A stretch of DNA of 64,000 nucleotides, taken from positions 1,045,001-1,109,000 of the forward strand of contig NZ_CP014517.1 in the NCBI RefSeq assembly GCF_001577265.1, given 5' to 3'. A program made the position numbers and the translations under genes. Below are positions 2,224 to 18,123 of the stretch, piece by piece. The notes under the pieces were generated by a model. It was not told the origin of the DNA and did not search any database. It worked only from the letters and a program-made list of their open reading frames with translations. Source of the stretch: Variovorax sp. PAMC 28711. GTDB taxonomy: Bacteria > Pseudomonadota > Gammaproteobacteria > Burkholderiales > Burkholderiaceae_C. The first letter of the stretch is position 1, and each line of letters opens with the position of its first letter.

Positions 2224-2247
2224 TGGTGCCGCCTGTCTGACTCGAAC
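2224..2247 (-). repeat. Left attachment site: partial copy of the tRNA-Thr 3' end
   Basis: These 24 bases match the 3' end of the tRNA-Thr gene at 18048-18071 with 2 mismatches. The first 14 bases, tggtgccgcctgtc, are identical and cover the CCA end, the acceptor strand and the edge of the T arm. It is the outermost feature before the integrase gene. Together with the right copy it delimits the integrated element. The mismatches lie outside the 14-bp core, as expected if crossover occurred within the core. Confidence 0.85.
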
Positions 2248-2288
2248 ATGGCCCGCCAACCCGCATGAATGCTTGAAGTCGTCAGAGC

Positions 2289-2319
2289 GGGGGCAGAATC
2301 TGCCCCCAAATGTGCCCCC
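2289..2319. promoter_or_regulatory. TGCCCCC heptamer cluster beside the integrase (candidate arm sites)
   Basis: Three copies of the heptamer TGCCCCC lie within 31 bases: inverted at 2289-2295, direct at 2301-2307 and direct at 2313-2319. The last two form a 19-bp block repeated exactly at 17915-17933, near the other end of the element. The position, 20-50 bases before the integrase start and 40-95 bases inside the left att core, fits arm-type integrase or excisionase binding sites. It might also autoregulate the integrase promoter. No consensus is proven from sequence alone. Confidence 0.6.
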
Positions 2320-2338
2320 ACCCTGCGACGGATGCCCG

Positions 2339-3568
2339 ATGAAATTGACAGATGCGAAGCTTCGCAACCTCACCCTGCCCGGCAAGCATGCCGACGGCGG
2401 GGGCCTTTATTTGGAGGTCCTTCCGACTGGCGGGCGGTACTGGCGATTGAAGTACCGATTCGGCGGCAAAGAAAAGCGCCTTGCGTTTGGTGTTTACCCC
2501 GCCGTTGGCCTGAAAGACGCTCGAGAGCAGCGCGAGATTGCCAAGCAGTTTCTCGGTCGCGGTGAGGATCCAGGCGAAGCGCGCAAGGCCGCAAAGGTCA
2601 AGGTATCAACAGAGGCAGCCAACAGCTTTCAGGCGGTGGCGCTTGACTGGCACAAGGCCAACTCCAAGAGATGGTCGAACGTAACCGCGGCAAAAACGAT
2701 GACGCATTTGCTGTCCGACGTCTTCACGGTCATCGGCAACCGCCCGATCGCAACGGTTACCCCGCCCGAATTGCTGGCGATGCTACGAAAAGTAGAGAGT
2801 CGCGGCGCAGCCTACACAGCAACCCGACTGCGGGAACTGTGCGGCCAGATATTCCGCTATGGCATCGCCACCGGCCGAGCTACATACAACCCGGCCGCCG
2901 ATTTGGTGAAGACGATCGTGCTACCCGGCGTCAAGCACCGGCCGGCGATCACTGACCGCCGGGAATTTGGCACGCTGTTGCGGGACCTACAGAGTTATCA
3001 AGCGGCCGACAGACTCACCTTGCTTGCAACTCGCCTGGCGCTGCTCACGTTCGTGCGCTCGCAAGAGTTGCGGTTGGCTCAATGGCGAGAAATCGACTTC
3101 GATAGCCGCGAGTGGCGCATTCCTGCAGCCCGCATGAAGATGGGCAAGGGTCTAAATCAAGCGCACATCGTTCCACTATCTCAGGCTGCCGTCGAGACGT
3201 TGAAAGCCATCCATCTACTGACCAGCGACACGACCAACGTCTTCCCCAACAGCTTCGGCGCTGACGGCTTTATGAGCGAGAACACAATCGGGCGCATGCT
3301 GATCCGGATGGGATATCAAGGCAGGCAGACACTGCATGGCTTCCGTGCGTCTGCACGGAGCTTACTTTCAGAAAGAGGCTGGAGTGTGGCTGCACTGGAG
3401 CGTCAGTTGGACCACGCCGAACGCAGCAAGGTAGTGGCAGCTTACGCCCGGAGCGAGCACCTTAGTGAGCGGCGCCTGATCATGGACGATTGGGGTGCAT
3501 TAGTGACGGCGCTTGAGGCTGGACAATCTGGTAGCCCCATCCTCACCAGCGAGGGTTCGGATCGTTAA
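2339..3568 (+). CDS. P4-type tyrosine integrase
   Basis: A 409-residue site-specific recombinase that inserts and excises the element at tRNA-Thr. The N-terminal 85 residues are a DUF4102-type arm-DNA-binding domain (ADGGGLYLEVLPTGGRYWRLK). A core-binding domain follows, then the catalytic domain with R240 (in FVRSQELR), H333 and R336 (in HGFR), H359 (in LDHA) and Y369 (in AAYAR), so the full RHRHY set is present. The ATG at 2339 is preferred over the upstream in-frame 2273 start because the family begins MKLTDAKLRN. The gene lies next to the truncated att copy, not next to the intact tRNA. Confidence 0.95.
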   Translation: MKLTDAKLRNLTLPGKHADGGGLYLEVLPTGGRYWRLKYRFGGKEKRLAFGVYPAVGLKDAREQREIAKQFLGRGEDPGEARKAAKVKVSTEAANSFQAVALDWHKANSKRWSNVTAAKTMTHLLSDVFTVIGNRPIATVTPPELLAMLRKVESRGAAYTATRLRELCGQIFRYGIATGRATYNPAADLVKTIVLPGVKHRPAITDRREFGTLLRDLQSYQAADRLTLLATRLALLTFVRSQELRLAQWREIDFDSREWRIPAARMKMGKGLNQAHIVPLSQAAVETLKAIHLLTSDTTNVFPNSFGADGFMSENTIGRMLIRMGYQGRQTLHGFRASARSLLSERGWSVAALERQLDHAERSKVVAAYARSEHLSERRLIMDDWGALVTALEAGQSGSPILTSEGSDR

Positions 3569-6870: not shown

Positions 6871-7014
6871 TGGGCTGGGGGGGCGCTCGACGAGCGATTC
6901 GGAGATGTACGCGCGCGCGTGCGAGACGCTGCCGCTCCCGATGAGTCGGAGGAGCAGATCCCCGTCGGCGACATCCGTGGGCGCGCCGCTTACCTCACAC
7001 AGGATACTCAGTGA
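6871..7014 (+). CDS. Possible short ORF or ORF remnant
   Basis: Directly after the preceding small gene, another frame reads LDERFGDVRARVRDAAAP then IPVGDIRGRAAYL to a stop at 7012-7014. It has the feel of coding sequence (charged helix, then a compact C-terminus) but no convincing start; the frame is open from GTG 6691, within the previous gene. It may be a real small island gene or a decayed end. It overlaps the convergent DUF3883 gene by 7 bases. Confidence 0.25.
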   Translation, partial: WAGGALDERFGDVRARVRDAAAPDESEEQIPVGDIRGRAAYLTQDTQ

Positions 7015-7901
7015 CTATCAGCGCAGCCAAGTCTCGCGCCGTGCCCAACCGTGCGCTCAAACAGTGGAGCGAAAGTTGCAAAGGGAATCACAACTTCGCC
7101 CCATTGTCCCTCGCCGACGTCGAGAGAGACATGCTCGCCAACCTCTGGTCGAGACACGACGGCCAAGGTCGGACTTCCATTTTTTGACAGATCCCACAGG
7201 TGAAATTGATGCAGTGGCATCAACTCTGTTGCGTCCCATTCGTTTCGAGTCAGATGGAAGGTTCCACGCATCCCCATTCGCGACGCCTTTACCTCTATAG
7301 GCAGTTGTTGAAGGTCGCTGGCCGACGCAACGGAAAGCACGTCGTAGCCGTCGCTGTTGCTCTCTACAGACCTCCACTTCGGTTCACGCCCCGTTCGCTC
7401 GCGCTCAAAGGCCAACGTTAGCCGCTCCCCCTCGCGACCGATTTCGCCGAGTTCGGCGTTCCTAAGCCCCCGGGCGATCGCCGCCAGTCGGTCCCAAAAG
7501 TGGACGACGTCGTTCTCGTAGCCGCGGGCAAGCTCCGCCTCGATCAATGATTGCGCGACCTCGGTCGGCGAGAAGCTCAGCACCTTTAAACGCCCGTCGA
7601 TCGCATTTTTGATCCAGGGTGGCCGGATCGTCTCGACGTAGTCGAGCAGAGCCTGCCGGAGCTTCAAGTAATCCAAGTCAATGCCGAGCAGCCGCGCCCC
7701 GGCCGGCGTCAGGACTGCAATGCCACAGTCATTGGCGCGCAGCCAGTGCAGCTCCTGCGCCACTTCCAACAATCGCCCAACCTCCATGCCGCCCTGGCGA
7801 GGGAGCTCCGAGCGCAGTTGCTGAAACGGCATGGGGTGCTCGTCGGCCAGGCGCAGCAAGTTGAAGCAACCATATGCGATGCCAGGCGACAACGCGATCA
7901 C
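7008..7901 (-). CDS. DUF3883-type PD-(D/E)XK nuclease-like protein, last gene of defence-type operon
   Basis: A 297-residue protein. Residues 1-75 look like a winged-helix region (LTPAGARLLG). Residues 150-250 form a DUF3883-like restriction-endonuclease fold: IGREGERL (E157), D187 in GYDVLS, and E203/K205 in PIEVKAS, followed by TRNEWDA, the usual order for this family. DUF3883 domains occur in restriction and antiviral loci, often beside SNF2 helicases. The ATG at 7901 overlaps the helicase stop at 7898, so it is translationally coupled as the final gene of the five-gene operon. Nuclease activity is inferred from the E/D/ExK residues. Confidence 0.8.
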   Translation of the reverse strand: MIALSPGIAYGCFNLLRLADEHPMPFQQLRSELPRQGGMEVGRLLEVAQELHWLRANDCGIAVLTPAGARLLGIDLDYLKLRQALLDYVETIRPPWIKNAIDGRLKVLSFSPTEVAQSLIEAELARGYENDVVHFWDRLAAIARGLRNAELGEIGREGERLTLAFERERTGREPKWRSVESNSDGYDVLSVASASDLQQLPIEVKASRMGMRGTFHLTRNEWDATELMPLHQFHLWDLSKNGSPTLAVVSRPEVGEHVSLDVGEGQWGEVVIPFATFAPLFERTVGHGARLGCADSH

Positions 7902-9724
7902 GCAAACCCCTTTTCGAGGTCGCGCAACAGCGCCTCAATATCCTCTTCCTTCAATCCCACCGAGTAATAGTCGTAGTCCTCAATATCGTTTGGATCGAGC
8001 GCGATGGGGTCGACGCCGAGCGCCGAATCGTCAAGGGCTGCGGCCATCTGCTTGATTTTGTAGTCGAGGCGCTCGAGGACGGTTTCGTCGACGGTCTCCT
8101 CGCACTCAACGATCTCGATGATCGTTTCTTCATCCGCGGAGAGGCCGAAGCGATGAATTCGATCCTCGGATTGCAGGTAGTGGGCCGCGTTGAAAGTGCG
8201 GTCGAGATACATGGCGTGATGGCAGACACGATGCAAGCTAATGCCCTCGCCTGCGGCGGCAGGGTTTGCCACCATAACCATGGTGTTTCGGTCGTCGTGA
8301 AAGAGCTTGATTTTGCCCTCCCGCGTCTCATCGTCGTCCTCGTCCCCCGCGTCCACTCCTCCATGGATGTAAACAGCCCCCAGGTCCGACAGACGCGCCG
8401 CGATGTATTCGACGTTCCGCACATAAGACGACCAGATCAACACCTTTTTGCCTTCGAGCGCGAGCTGCCGCGCGCGACGCAAAACGTATCGCAACTTGGG
8501 CCCGTCACCCTCTTCAAGAACGGCGGCCAGCAAGTCAGGGTGCGCGAAGCCGAACTCGGATGCGAGCAGCGCAGGGTTCGATACAAACTGCAAGAGCCGT
8601 GTCACCGACCGCCCGAGTGCTCGAAACGACTGTTTGCTTCGAATACTTAACGCCGATGCAGCCTCGCGGGCGACCTCGTGCTTCATCAAGCGATATAGCT
8701 CGCGCTGCAGAGGAGCCAGAGGCAGGCGAACTCGCTGGCGAGTGATCGGCGGCAACCCCAGTTCTGTCTTGTTCGTCCGCACGTATACGGCTTTGATCAG
8801 GTCGACAACATTGTCAACATTCGCATCGATCTCGGGATAGAGAAAAAAGAACTGCGGTATCAGGTCGTCGACGGCCTGCGGCATCGGCGTGCCGGACATC
8901 ACCAGCTTGCCGACAGGCAAATGGGCCAACGAGAGCACGGCTCTTGCGGTGCGTTTTGCAATGCCGCTTTTGATACGGTGACTTTCGTCCAGGAAGACGA
9001 AGACCTTGTGACGCGCGCAATGGGCCGCGAGCATGTCGCCCACGTTCACCAGCTGCTGGTAGGTGATCAGCATAAAGCGAGGATCGTCCATCAGCATCCG
9101 CTCGATCTTGTCCCGGCCTCCACGAAGACGCACAAACTGCCTCCCCAGTTGCGGCATGCAGTCGACGATTTGCTCGTCCCACGCTGCGAAGGCGTTCTTA
9201 GGGGCGACAACCAGCAGACGCTCCGAGTCCCGTGCCTTGAAGAAAAAGAAGGACAGCGCCTCGGTAGTCTTGCCCGCGCCAGGAACGGAAAAAGTCGCGG
9301 CTGCCGGCAGCGACGCCATCTTGGCCACGTTGCGAGCCTGCTGCGGTGACAGGTCGCGGGCAAAGCCGAGGGATTTCAGCTCGGAGCGTAGGACCGCTTG
9401 GTCCACCCACTCCTGCCTGACTGCGGCGTCGTATCCCGCCGCCGCGCGCGCCGACCTGAGCAGGAGCTCCCGCGCGGCCGGGCCCACCTCGTAGCCGACA
9501 CCGAGGCGCAGCCCATACGTGCTGAGGATGTTGAGCATCGAGCCGCGCAGCGAGGCGAAATTCCACCAGGGCATCGACAGCTCGCGACTGCCCTCCTGCC
9601 GCGCGTTCGGTGTGTGGTCCATCGCCAGCCGGCGGACGAGCGAGGGCCACTCCTGCCCGTCGTCCTCCGGCTCCCAGCGCATGAACGCCGAGAGATCGCC
9701 TTCACGATAGTCGATCCTCAGCAT
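7898..9724 (-). CDS. SNF2-like superfamily 2 helicase/translocase
   Basis: A 608-residue SF2 ATPase. Walker A is VPGAGKTT (147-154), motif II is DESH (246-249), motif III is SGTP (277-280), and the C-terminal RecA domain carries AGEGISLH (491-498) and the arginine motif SEDRIHRFG (519-527). The N-terminal 120 residues (MPWWNFASLRG region) are an extra domain of unknown role. Such DNA translocases power restriction and antiviral systems (type I/III R-M, DISARM). The start overlaps the end of the ParB-like gene, and its own stop overlaps the next start. An acidic tail (DPNDIEDYDYY) ends the protein. Confidence 0.93.
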   Translation of the reverse strand: MLRIDYREGDLSAFMRWEPEDDGQEWPSLVRRLAMDHTPNARQEGSRELSMPWWNFASLRGSMLNILSTYGLRLGVGYEVGPAARELLLRSARAAAGYDAAVRQEWVDQAVLRSELKSLGFARDLSPQQARNVAKMASLPAAATFSVPGAGKTTEALSFFFFKARDSERLLVVAPKNAFAAWDEQIVDCMPQLGRQFVRLRGGRDKIERMLMDDPRFMLITYQQLVNVGDMLAAHCARHKVFVFLDESHRIKSGIAKRTARAVLSLAHLPVGKLVMSGTPMPQAVDDLIPQFFFLYPEIDANVDNVVDLIKAVYVRTNKTELGLPPITRQRVRLPLAPLQRELYRLMKHEVAREAASALSIRSKQSFRALGRSVTRLLQFVSNPALLASEFGFAHPDLLAAVLEEGDGPKLRYVLRRARQLALEGKKVLIWSSYVRNVEYIAARLSDLGAVYIHGGVDAGDEDDDETREGKIKLFHDDRNTMVMVANPAAAGEGISLHRVCHHAMYLDRTFNAAHYLQSEDRIHRFGLSADEETIIEIVECEETVDETVLERLDYKIKQMAAALDDSALGVDPIALDPNDIEDYDYYSVGLKEEDIEALLRDLEKGFA

Positions 9725-11031
9725 GCCTTCGACGCGATGAATTCCCTGATCTTTGCGATCTGGGCCTCCAACCTGTCCAACTGGCCGGCGACGCCCTCGA
9801 CCTTCGTCTCGGCGCCCAGGCCGAGCTTGATGCCGTCCTCAAGCGCGCCGGTCGCTCGTGCGCAGCAGTCGAGCAGCTTCTCAGCCGACTTCGTGTCGCG
9901 TTTGAGCTGCTTTTGGCTCTCGATGAACTCGACGATGATTTGGCGCGCGGCGCCGGCGTTATCGCCCTTACAGATCTCTTTTGAAAGTGCCAGGTCGTCA
10001 GCTTCGCCGCTCGACTTGGCCGGCCCGCCGCCGAACAGGTCCGTCGTTTCGTCGTCGACTGCAACAGTGGAAATCGGAAAGGCGGCTTTGAGCTTCTCGA
10101 TGATTGGCCCGATGTGCTGCGCCATGCCGTTGATAGCGTCGTGCAGGCTGTCCTTGACCTCGTCGGGCTTGTCGATCAACGCGAACGCCGCCTCCTTGAA
10201 AAGCTGCTGCCTTCCAGTACCGCCGACTTTGCCGCGGGATGTGACGATCCTGCGAAAGGCAAGCTCGCCGCCCGCGACAAGGGACCACATGTTGTCCTTG
10301 CCACGCGACAGGAGCCAGTCGTGGGCGTAATCCCGCATGTCGAGCAGCTCCTTGATATCTGCTTCCTTCATTCCATACACCTCGCCCAGTTCCTTGTCGG
10401 AGTAGCCCTCGCGCTGGCGCTTGGCCAGCATCATGTTGGCTTTCGAGTCCCACGAGTAGTCGGCCTTGATGTCCTTCTCGATTTGAAGTTCTGCCTCCAG
10501 GCGGTCGATCGCTTTCGTGTCCACAGGTGGCAAGACCGCAACATCGATGTATTCGAAATGCCCGAATTTGCTCGAATCCGAATGAAAAAGATCGCGCCAG
10601 GTGGCGAGCCGGCGGTTCCCATTGATCACGAAGCCGTGCTCGTCGAGCAGGATCGGGTCGACCTGCTTGTTGGCAGCGTTCTCGAAATACTTTCGAAGGT
10701 CGGACTTCTCGGCCAGCTTCAAAAGGAGGGCGTGCTGTATTTCCTGCGCCTTCCAAAGCTCAGGGTCGTCCAAGAACAAGCCAACTGACTCCTGCGGATT
10801 CTTCGCGAGGTGCTCTACTTGGGCGGACGCCGTGCGCCCGTTCTCAAGTCGGTATTTGGGCACGTTTTGATGGACGCGGATGATCTTGATGTCCTGCGTC
10901 TGCCCTTGGATCACCACTCGATGCGTTGCGCCATTGGCGGCCACCAGCTTTTTGCCGAACTCTTCAATGCGAGCGGCCTTCGTCCAGCCGAAGCGAGAGT
11001 CTTTTGGGTTCAGAGGCAACGATGTGAGCAT
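9718..11031 (-). CDS. ParB/DGQHR-like protein with HTH, in defence-type operon
   Basis: A 437-residue protein. Residues 125-148 (DPILLD then GFVINGNRRLATW) match the core of ParB/sulfiredoxin-fold domains, where a G-x-R-R nucleotide/DNA-binding signature is typical. A helix-turn-helix-like segment follows (GYSDKELGEVYGMKEADIKE), then a long helical C-terminus. ATG 11031 is chosen because it lies 1 base after the upstream stop (TGACATG); the longer frame upstream would overlap the endonuclease gene. No partner ParA is present, so plasmid-type partitioning is unlikely. A role in DNA recognition or NTP-dependent loading for the operon's nucleases is inference. Confidence 0.8.
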   Translation of the reverse strand: MLTSLPLNPKDSRFGWTKAARIEEFGKKLVAANGATHRVVIQGQTQDIKIIRVHQNVPKYRLENGRTASAQVEHLAKNPQESVGLFLDDPELWKAQEIQHALLLKLAEKSDLRKYFENAANKQVDPILLDEHGFVINGNRRLATWRDLFHSDSSKFGHFEYIDVAVLPPVDTKAIDRLEAELQIEKDIKADYSWDSKANMMLAKRQREGYSDKELGEVYGMKEADIKELLDMRDYAHDWLLSRGKDNMWSLVAGGELAFRRIVTSRGKVGGTGRQQLFKEAAFALIDKPDEVKDSLHDAINGMAQHIGPIIEKLKAAFPISTVAVDDETTDLFGGGPAKSSGEADDLALSKEICKGDNAGAARQIIVEFIESQKQLKRDTKSAEKLLDCCARATGALEDGIKLGLGAETKVEGVAGQLDRLEAQIAKIREFIASKAC

Positions 11032-11032
11032 G

Positions 11033-11491
11033 TCAAGATTCCATTGCAAAAACGAGCGTGGGGACGTGATAGGCCTTCTTGAAAATCGCGAGCTCGCGCT
11101 CCAATCGCTTTGCCTGCGCGAGGTTGTCACCGAGCAGTTTGGCCATGTCCTGAGAGGGCAAAATAATGATTGCGCCCTTGACGAGGTTGTCCAAATACAT
11201 GGCCTGCAGCTTCATCAGGTCCGCGTAGACGCGCGAGATGTTCCCGGTCTGTATGCACAAGCCAATGTCGTCTTTGGCCGCTGTAATCGTCATGTCCGAA
11301 TCGGCGGAGACGCACACCTCACCAGACCATCCCGTGGCCTTAAGCTGAGAGAGCAACTGACCGCGAATGCGCGTCGCGGCGCCAGGCCCCGCTTTTTCAG
11401 TAACGCTGGTGATCGCGTCGGCGACGGTTTTGCGCAAAGCCGCTGATATGCATTTGTCGCCAGCGCAGTGGCTTAGCGTGAAGTGCTTCAC
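11033..11491 (-). CDS. BglII/BstYI-like restriction endonuclease candidate
   Basis: A 152-residue protein whose second half follows the BglII/BstYI pattern: an acidic pair (DD at 74-75), then IQTGNISRVYADL (80-92), a helix, then GAIIILPS, and a C-terminal YHVPTLVFAM strand. In characterised relatives the motif before the Gln is Glu-x-Gln; here it reads C79-I80-Q81, so one expected catalytic acid is replaced by Cys. It sits between a DNA methyltransferase (start/stop overlap) and the ParB-like gene, which supports a restriction role. It could instead be a noncatalytic specificity subunit. Family assignment is from memory of the fold pattern, hence moderate confidence. Confidence 0.6.
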   Translation of the reverse strand: MKHFTLSHCAGDKCISAALRKTVADAITSVTEKAGPGAATRIRGQLLSQLKATGWSGEVCVSADSDMTITAAKDDIGLCIQTGNISRVYADLMKLQAMYLDNLVKGAIIILPSQDMAKLLGDNLAQAKRLERELAIFKKAYHVPTLVFAMES

Positions 11492-12522
11492 CTTGAGCCC
11501 TCGTCCGTCGGGGCAGAGACGGAGGGCGGCGTCTTCGACAGCGAGCTCTGGGTATGGTCGTAAATCGGCCGGTCATGAGGCCGATAGATGGCGTTGCCGT
11601 CGAGTGCGGCCTGCATGCGCTGCCTGCCCACCTCGGCATAATCCGCATCCAACTCGCAACCCCAAAAGCGACGTCCATGAATCGCGGCAGCGACGCCCGC
11701 GGACGCGACGCCTGCAAACGGGTCGAAAACGAGATCCCCCGGATTAGTTAGCGCGAGGGTGAGGCGCTCGATAAGCCCAACCGGAAACTGGCAGGGGTGG
11801 ATGGTTTTTTCAACGTGGTTGCTTTTCACGTTGGGAATATTCCAGACATCCTCGGGATTCTTGCCCAGGGGATTGCCCGAAAATTGGCCTGCGTTGGGCC
11901 CCTTGAAGTGCTTCTTGCCCGGATACTTTGATGGCACCCTTACCTCATCGAGGTTGAAGGTGTAATCGTCCTTTTTTAACCGAGTCTTCGTATACCAGAG
12001 AACGACTTCATAGCGCCCCGAGAAGCGGCGCTGCGTGTGGAGCCCATGGCCAAACGTCCAAATGATACGGTTGCGCATTTGAAGCTTGTGTCTTTTGAAG
12101 ATCGGAGCGAACTCGATGTCCAAAGGAAATATCTGGCTGTCTACCACGAAGTTGCCGACCTGCCAGCAGAGGCTCCCACCGTCTTTGAGACGCGGGATCA
12201 ACTCATCGATGATGCTGGCCTGCCATTCCAAATAGGCCTCCAATCCCTGCTTACTCTCGTACTCCTTGCCGATGTTGTAGGGCGGGGAAGTCACGATGAG
12301 GTCGAACACTGGCTCAGCAGGCAGGCCCTTCAGAAACGCAAGAACATCGCCCAGCCATATGGCACTCGCCTCGCCGATCAAAGCCTCAGGTTTGGCCTTC
12401 TTCCCTGGCTTGATTAAACGGGAAGTGGGCGGCACGCTATCCGTGCCTTTTCGCGCTGCTCGCGCGGTGTCGGTCGCCATCAATGCGTCCATTTCTGCTT
12501 CTATCGGTTCTTCGAAATGCAT
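11488..12522 (-). CDS. Beta-class DNA methyltransferase (N4-cytosine or N6-adenine)
   Basis: A 344-residue amino-methyltransferase. The catalytic motif IV TSPPY (78-82) comes first and the AdoMet-binding motif I DPFAG (267-271) near the C-terminus, the beta-class order. The Ser before PPY leans to N4-cytosine but does not settle it. A target-recognition region lies between (KKHFKGPNAGQFSGNP). ATG 12522 is chosen because ggagg lies about 10 bases upstream, whereas the longer in-frame ORF lacks this. It is the first gene of the five-gene operon and would protect host DNA from the encoded nuclease(s). Confidence 0.92.
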   Translation of the reverse strand: MHFEEPIEAEMDALMATDTARAARKGTDSVPPTSRLIKPGKKAKPEALIGEASAIWLGDVLAFLKGLPAEPVFDLIVTSPPYNIGKEYESKQGLEAYLEWQASIIDELIPRLKDGGSLCWQVGNFVVDSQIFPLDIEFAPIFKRHKLQMRNRIIWTFGHGLHTQRRFSGRYEVVLWYTKTRLKKDDYTFNLDEVRVPSKYPGKKHFKGPNAGQFSGNPLGKNPEDVWNIPNVKSNHVEKTIHPCQFPVGLIERLTLALTNPGDLVFDPFAGVASAGVAAAIHGRRFWGCELDADYAEVGRQRMQAALDGNAIYRPHDRPIYDHTQSSLSKTPPSVSAPTDEGSR

Positions 12523-13981: not shown

Positions 13982-14533
13982 TCAGGCAGTGGTCTTGAGG
14001 TATTCGTAGACCGTTGCCCGGGAAATGCCAAGCGTGGATGCGATTTGCGCTTTGGGAATCCCGTTTACAGCCATGTCGCGCAGCGTCTCGGCAGCTTCCT
14101 TGTTTAAGGCCGGCTTGCGGCCCTTGTAGACCCCGCTGGCTTTTGCGATCGCAATGCCTTCGCGCTGTCGCTCCTTGATAAGCGCGCGTTCAAACTGGCT
14201 CACGGCACCGAGGAGCTGCAGCATCAACGTGGCCATGGGGTCATCGCTGCTGGTGAACTTCATGCCTTCCTTCACGAACCAGACGGACACGCCGCGGTCG
14301 GTCAGCCCCTTGACCACGTCTTGCAAATCCCGAAGCGAACGCGACAGGCGGTCCATGCTGTGAACGAATAGGCAATCGCCTTCCCGCACGAACTCGAGCA
14401 TGGCTTTGAGTTGCGGCCGTTCCGTGTCCTTGCCGCTCGCTTGGTCGGCGAAAGTTTTATCGAGGGGTACTCCGTCCAGCTGACGTGCATCGTGCTGGCC
14501 GGCGGTGGAAACCCGGACGTAGCCGACGCGCAT
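13982..14533 (-). CDS. Serine resolvase/invertase (Tn3/Hin type)
   Basis: A 183-residue serine recombinase. The catalytic serine lies in the N-terminal VRVSTAGQ, the resolvase core includes DRLSRSLRDL and FERALIKERQREGI, and the C-terminal DNA-binding HTH is GIPKAQIASTLGISRATVYEYL. Length is normal for the small resolvase family and the protein looks intact. The 387-base gap upstream is a natural place for a res site. No Tn3 transposase is nearby, so this is either a stand-alone resolution/inversion function or a leftover of a transposon within the element. Confidence 0.93.
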   Translation of the reverse strand: MRVGYVRVSTAGQHDARQLDGVPLDKTFADQASGKDTERPQLKAMLEFVREGDCLFVHSMDRLSRSLRDLQDVVKGLTDRGVSVWFVKEGMKFTSSDDPMATLMLQLLGAVSQFERALIKERQREGIAIAKASGVYKGRKPALNKEAAETLRDMAVNGIPKAQIASTLGISRATVYEYLKTTA

Positions 14534-18047: not shown

Positions 18048-18071
18048 TGGTGCCGCCTGTCGGAATCGAAC
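18048..18071 (-). repeat. Right attachment site within the tRNA-Thr 3' end
   Basis: Same 24-base segment as 2224-2247 with 2 differences; the first 14 bases are identical. It covers CCA, the 3' acceptor strand and part of the T arm. Integration here leaves the tRNA functional, because the element carries a matching 3' end. Confidence 0.85.
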
Positions 18072-18123
18072 TGACGACCTTCCGCTTACAAGGCGGGTGC
18101 TCTACCAACTGAGCTAAGGCGGC
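18048..18123 (-). tRNA. tRNA-Thr (anticodon UGU)
   Basis: Reading the minus strand gives a 76-nt cloverleaf with encoded CCA. The acceptor stem pairs GCCGCC with GGCGGC, the D-arm has TAGCTCAGTTGGTAGAGC, the anticodon loop is CTTGTAA (anticodon TGT) and the T-arm has GTTCGATTC. The first anticodon-stem pair (27-43) is a C-A mismatch. It decodes ACA and by wobble other Thr codons. The gene is intact, and its 3' end (18048-18071) is the attachment site of the element. Confidence 0.97.

Follow-up and report, generated by a model that had tools for sequence, protein, structure and literature searches.

Among described defence systems, type II restriction-modification systems of the BstYI/BglII/BamHI group pair a beta-class DNA methyltransferase (MTase) with a BglII-fold protein in one operon, and the catalytic pattern of this group is D...ExQ or ExE. 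Types I and III bring together modification, a motor of superfamily 2 and a nuclease, DISARM combines an MTase with a SNF2-type helicase, and Dpd and Dnd contain proteins described as members of the ParB superfamily (DpdB and DndB), joined in Dpd by the SNF2 helicase DpdE. Features of all these systems recur in a minus-strand operon of five genes (positions 7008-12522, 5.5 kb) within a 64,000-nucleotide stretch of the genome of Variovorax sp. PAMC 28711, hereafter called the window. In order, the operon encodes an MTase, a BglII-like protein, a ParB-like protein, a SNF2 motor and a DUF3883 protein. An initial annotation of the window had described these five genes in this order as cargo of an element inserted in a tRNA gene, which was confirmed. 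Our analysis indicates that they probably act as an ATP-dependent restriction-modification system that joins a type II system to a ParB-SNF2-DUF3883 module.

As in type II systems a DNA methyltransferase is present; unlike in the BstYI/BglII/BamHI group, the metal-binding carboxylates of the BglII-fold protein are lost and a ParB-like protein, a SNF2 ATPase and nearly always a DUF3883 protein are attached. With types I and III the locus shares a superfamily 2 motor and the predicted separation of modification, motor and nuclease functions, but its motor is of SNF2 type, its predicted DUF3883 nuclease is separate and a ParB-like protein is added; among the five proteins HsdR reached 16 of 284 bits (NCBIfam cut-off) and no HsdS, HsdM or Res family was matched. 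DISARM models matched on the shared helicase part only (NCBIfam DrmD, 34 of 610 bits; PADLOC DrmA 30 and DrmD 28 bits), with neither DrmB nor DrmC among ten proteins scanned, and the same held for Zorya (ZorD, PADLOC 70 bits, NCBIfam 19 of 1500; no ZorA or ZorB among ten proteins scanned). Unlike in Dpd and Dnd, modification would be carried out by a DNA methyltransferase; in the scanned proteins no DpdA or DndA/C/D/E was matched and DpdE matched the helicase part only (57 bits). For BREX, neither PglZ nor BrxC was matched in the scanned proteins, and BrxH matched the helicase part only (27 bits). With KorB, Noc and ParB of the ParB superfamily the ParB-like protein shares the N-terminal fold, the NGNRR/GERR motif and a helix-turn-helix (HTH), unlike them it has no ParA gene among the five, and a SNF2 ATPase adjoins in 73/80 loci. 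DISARM, Zorya, Dpd, BREX and types I and III were rejected because scores were far below the cut-offs, and PADLOC PDC-S36 was discarded as a name for the DUF3883 protein since 33 bits was too little.

The whole set was thus not assigned by PADLOC, NCBIfam or Pfam, although generic type II models of PADLOC matched two of the five genes, and the suspicion of the initial annotation that it belongs to no established type was upheld. No description of the gene set was found in a search of open-access literature that did not extend to preprints or most subscription journals. From its sequences, the set would represent a new variant of restriction-modification that works like ATP-dependent restriction, with neither the subunits of types I and III nor the catalytic residues of type II.

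Conservation of the five-gene set

A genome collection was scanned with the ParB-like alignment, and in 73 of the best 80 of 115 loci a SNF2 gene was located just downstream of the ParB-like gene (same strand, ≤3 kb). When viral contigs were scanned for SNF2 first (best 79 of 333 loci), loci scoring ≥350 bits had ParB upstream in 20/20 and DUF3883 in 19/20 cases, ParB was present in 2/3 loci with 170-350 bits, and below 170 bits it was found in 0/56. When viral contigs were searched with the BglII-like protein, ParB adjoined in 8/10 loci, the other two representing a phage remnant. Further, the pairwise distance matrices of the five families correlated with a Pearson coefficient of 0.72-0.96, against 0.09-0.22 for the best of 500 permutations. 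Co-occurrence in the ParB-first and SNF2-first scans, proposed as a check in the initial annotation, is therefore far above chance. Counting relied on profile models derived from the loci analysed here, and gene calls were mechanical; duplicates (L001, L090, L091, L114, L115, L079, L100, L104-L107, L110-L113) were dropped before the locus table was made, of which L079 was kept among the BglII-like rows described below.

Within the 73 ParB-SNF2 loci, an MTase was present in 71, the other two being cut by contig ends, and DUF3883 in 69, with two cut by contig ends; the BglII-like gene was found in 61. The MTase belonged to the N4/N6 family in 62 loci and was of C5-cytosine type in nine, where it is encoded convergently after DUF3883 (C5 Pfam match 1.1e-41). 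For L083 and L088 the MTase counted is a remote relative on the opposite strand. Ten C5-MTase rows formed a single clade of the SNF2 tree (53 rows, built by a quick method; Shimodaira-Hasegawa-like approximate likelihood ratio test (SH-aLRT) 99) within a group that otherwise has N4/N6 enzymes, which reads as one swap of the self-marking enzyme for an unrelated one. Since MTase and BglII-like parts are exchangeable, ParB-SNF2, nearly always together with DUF3883, appears to be the constant core, with modification and recognition parts added to it. Synteny and MTase presence support the earlier notion of a conserved, self-marking, restriction-type unit.

According to record titles, loci occur in Pseudomonadota, Verrucomicrobiota, Planctomycetota, Acidobacteria, Spirochaetes, Bacteroidota and Bacillota, but many come from metagenome assemblies, in which the taxon assignment may be mistaken; cultured isolates include Inhella crocodyli and Sulfurisoma sediminicola. 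The system is uncommon: the ParB-like model matched 4/398 and the BglII-like model 2/398 genomes of the phylum, both counts including the genome of the window. On two Gram-positive plasmids, L008 and L009, ParB-SNF2 has further restriction-type genes in its vicinity, namely an MTase in the former and C5 MTases plus Sau3AI-family nucleases in the latter. A more distant ParB-SNF2-DUF3883 branch (SNF2 about 390 bits) was seen in viral contigs L194-L202 and L206, in which the MTase and BglII models found no match.

Properties of the individual proteins

Alignment and structural model place the BglII-like protein in the fold of BglII, BstYI and BamHI, shared over 150 residues (structures 1sdo, 1d2i and 1bam), and lacking the metal-site carboxylates of that group; PADLOC REase_II matched it weakly (2.6e-7). 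Both catalytic residues, D and E, were gone in 63/63 rows (62 distinct sequences; 52 at 90% and 35 at 70% identity), the position of E being occupied by C in 29, Q in 28, H in four and N in two. Both were also missing in 11/11 further rows, among which L099 and L100 are near-copies, and in the divergent copy of L166, which brings the count to 75/75 module-linked rows. In contrast, all 22 two-gene systems whose MTases belong to this family retained both carboxylates (21 at 90% and 18 at 70% identity); a BstYI orthologue is among them (1.2e-90). These controls were drawn from 70 loci by a BglII-model match of >25 bits and no ParB match; L180, a remnant, was kept separate, and L166, excluded by its ParB match, was examined on its own. 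Since the carboxylates are gone in all copies examined and kept in the related stand-alone enzymes, the proposal of the initial annotation that this protein is one of the nucleases was not borne out; it is more likely a recognition subunit, and the cutting role would pass to DUF3883.

In a tree of 23 five-gene and 21 two-gene rows, the L046 and L047 copies were nested among active enzymes, yet they carry N at both catalytic positions, which points to inactivation at least two times; a single change was obtained in 0/200 bootstrap trees. The BglII-like gene was scored absent in L040, L042, L060, L063, L070, L072, L077 and L083; in L031, L039, L064 and L082 it was not detected close to a contig end, and of these four L039 truly lacks it, since the MTase there directly adjoins ParB. 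On the SNF2 tree, its lack requires four or more changes. On the alphaproteobacterial plasmids L003, L004, L005 and L006, a protein of about 280-320 aa fills its place upstream of ParB-SNF2-DUF3883; it gave no Pfam match in L003 and L005 and may be another recognition part. Genes for a C5 MTase and a Vsr-type nuclease lie nearby in L003 and L006. The highly divergent L166 has two MTases, followed by ParB-like, SNF2 and DUF3883, with the BglII-like gene last.

The MTase matched Pfam N6_N4_Mtase (4e-48) and PADLOC MTase_II (2.8e-75), its relatives in the PDB include the RsrI, MboIIA, CcrM and PvuII methylases, and the SPPY motif is kept in 57/58 aligned relatives. In a tree of 88 rows, also made by a quick method, the MTases of five-gene and two-gene systems interleave. 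A GATC core of the recognition site is only a guess from the kinship with BstYI, BglII and BamHI.

Both downstream enzymes appear intact. In SNF2, G, G, K and T of the GAGKT motif were conserved in 74/74 aligned rows and A in 68/74, and D246, E247, H249, R522 and R525 in 74/74 each. DUF3883 has the D...(E/Q)xK pattern of nucleases (D187, E203, K205), and these residues as well as E159 and E166 were each found in 65/65 aligned rows. Motif counts for DUF3883, SNF2 and MTase refer to rows of >150 bits and set lengths, a range from which distant forms such as L003-L009 fall out. When the DUF3883 sequence profile was compared to PDB chains, no convincing match was obtained (best E 0.94); DUF3883 is described as a restriction endonuclease (REase) domain in a passage of PMC3710099.

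The ParB-like protein has the N-terminal fold and the R-rich phosphate motif of the ParB superfamily, and the columns of the NGNRR motif are conserved in 82-84 of 84 rows. A ParB nucleotide-fold followed by an HTH is supported by sequence and by a model of moderate quality, of which the structural match comes from the VIA list alone. The sequence profile of the family found no convincing match among PDB chains (best E 0.74), the C-terminal helices did not match ParB chains, and no relative was detected in 50,697 phage records. ParB-like relatives of about 450-520 aa without a SNF2 match were seen in L068, L081, L086, L089 and L093; in L081 and L086 visual inspection suggests that the neighbours are sugar-nucleotide and polysaccharide genes.

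Proposed mechanism and alternative explanations

In the mechanism that we propose, the MTase would methylate a short palindromic site as a self mark, and a dimer of the BglII-like protein would bind the same site when unmethylated, as a reader and not a cutter. The ParB-like protein would be loaded at the site as a nucleotide-switched clamp and relay the signal, the SNF2 ATPase would translocate on or remodel DNA, and DUF3883 would cut DNA away from the recognition site. A ParB-like protein that connects recognition to the motor, as put forward in the initial annotation, would be consistent with its pairing with SNF2. More tentatively, and with a chance that we put somewhat below even, a type II enzyme has repeatedly been captured and stripped of catalysis, and now acts as a methylation-sensitive reader that loads a ParB clamp on unmodified DNA, which in turn recruits SNF2 and DUF3883. 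To our knowledge, a ParB clamp linking self/non-self recognition to restriction would, if true, be the first such case.

Phage genomes bear on the role of the MTase. In two viral contigs, L102/L180 and L103, the first ~115 residues of a BglII-like gene follow an MTase that shares 80% identity with the L055 enzyme over 271 residues, and a terminase comes next on the opposite strand; PHROGs names on these contigs include terminase, DNA polymerase clamp and Holliday resolvase, and within their sequenced stretches neither ParB nor DUF3883 was matched. An MTase alone lies beside phage genes in L117/L118 (terminase and head protease in L117) and L139 (integrase and endolysins), and these MTases fall in clades with system MTases. 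A phage that counters such a system would be expected to carry the corresponding MTase. The earlier interpretation of the MTase as the self mark is supported by the phages that have an MTase alone and by its presence in nearly all ParB-SNF2 loci, the C5 swap included. Complete two-gene BstYI/BglII-like systems with intact catalytic residues were observed in viral contigs L128-L132, L136-L138, L140-L144, L151, L152, L154-L158, L161 and L170; L142 and L143 agree in length and place with Burkholderia phages BcepIL02 and DC1.

Several observations weigh against the proposed system and its mechanism. In 12/73 ParB-SNF2 loci no BglII-like gene was detected, so it cannot be the sole reader, and there the MTase or the HTH of the ParB-like protein would have to recognize the site. 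L060 and L083 yielded no DUF3883 match, and the assignment of DUF3883 as a nuclease comes from the motif and the published remark. Nucleotide binding and clamp behaviour of the ParB-like protein are assumed from the fold of a model that is only moderate; in a survey of the fold, whose members bind CTP, ATP or GTP, 11 of 28 purified proteins bound a nucleotide (PMC12704722). In 7/80 loci a ParB-like relative has no SNF2, two of these being fragments. The BglII tree carries a long-branch warning, and the L046/L047 rows are of unusual composition. Finally, orphan MTases are common in phages and serve against other restriction systems too, and only 5/31 solo MTase rows on the tree were within five-gene clades (L117, L118, L119, L139, L180), with 26 outside; thus, only L102/L103/L180, with their BglII-like remnant, tie directly to the system.

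The absence of the BglII-like gene from some loci also bears on the foremost alternative, which we nevertheless consider unlikely: the MTase itself would be the recognition subunit, comparable to Mod of type III, the BglII-like protein an accessory or regulatory DNA binder, and ParB-SNF2-DUF3883 would respond to the MTase complex at the unmethylated site. The MTase was indeed found in all 71 loci not cut upstream. However, one clade has swapped it for an unrelated, convergently encoded C5 enzyme and has kept the other four genes, which, in that clade, is difficult to reconcile with an MTase as the structural core.

A role in maintenance of the carrying element instead of immunity, through MTase-protected killing after loss or through control of transfer, is rather improbable. 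Restriction systems can act as addiction modules, and the operon sits on a tRNA-integrated element here and on plasmids in relatives; the closely related MTase on phages points instead to pressure on incoming DNA, although the two roles are not exclusive. We regard it as very improbable that an ordinary type II pair, consisting of the MTase and a cutting BglII-like enzyme, merely lies beside an unrelated ParB-SNF2-DUF3883 module. Pfam and PADLOC do match the pair to type II families, strongly for MTase_II and weakly for REase_II, and genuine two-gene MTase and BstYI-like systems with closely related MTases exist, but the carboxylates missing from every module-linked copy and present in every free-standing one, the fixed gene order and the matching distance matrices contradict it, and the plain pair was rejected because the active site is lost. 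Least probable of all is a divergent form of a named system (DISARM, Dpd, Zorya, BREX, Dnd or type I/III), for which the weak PADLOC helicase matches could be cited and against which stand NCBIfam cut-offs missed by far and no non-helicase component among the proteins scanned.

If the proposed restriction-modification system holds, it shows a possible route from a two-gene restriction system to an ATP-dependent multi-subunit machine, with the enzyme disarmed at least two times beside a motor and another nuclease, and how type II and ATP-dependent restriction are related could be tested directly by removing or inactivating single parts. The set is compact, occurs in cultured isolates, and has closely related MTases on phages. 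It also suggests that, apart from DNA segregation, a ParB-fold protein may have a role in immunity; a 2025 survey of this fold opened the topic (PMC12704722).

Features of the locus and its carrying element

Coordinates of the five genes and of the element that carries them. Positions refer to the window.
Feature	Positions	Strand	Characteristics
DUF3883 (NOV_C) protein, 297 aa	7008..7901	minus	intact PD-(D/E)XK-type site; predicted nuclease
SNF2-family ATPase, 608 aa	7898..9724	minus	motor motifs intact
ParB-like protein, 437 aa	9718..11031	minus	ParB N-terminal fold, NGNRR motif (N137-R141), HTH, long C-terminal helices
BglII/BstYI-fold protein, 152 aa	11033..11491	minus	T70 and C79 in place of the catalytic D and E, Q81 retained; predicted recognition subunit
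DNA methyltransferase, 344 aa	11488..12522	minus	beta-class, TSPPYN motif, N4-cytosine or N6-adenine type
attL-like direct repeat of tRNA-Thr 3' end	2224..2247	plus	
Tyrosine integrase of the carrying element	2273..3568	plus	Pfam Phage_integrase 8e-17, Arm-DNA-bind_3 3.9e-24
tRNA-Thr	18048-18123	minus	
attR-like repeat within tRNA-Thr	18048..18071	plus	

The carrier of the operon is a 15.8-kb element integrated in tRNA-Thr, and relatives of the operon are also plasmid-borne. The tRNA-Thr site was unoccupied in 3/12 genus mates (G398, G400 and G403). In a further genus mate (G402) the flanks of this site are ~24 kb from each other, and the same site may therefore hold another element. A resolvase-type recombinase is located upstream of the operon at window positions 13982-14533; related resolvases were found near the operon elsewhere too, for example in L005, L022, L066 and L073, which suggests within-element movement.

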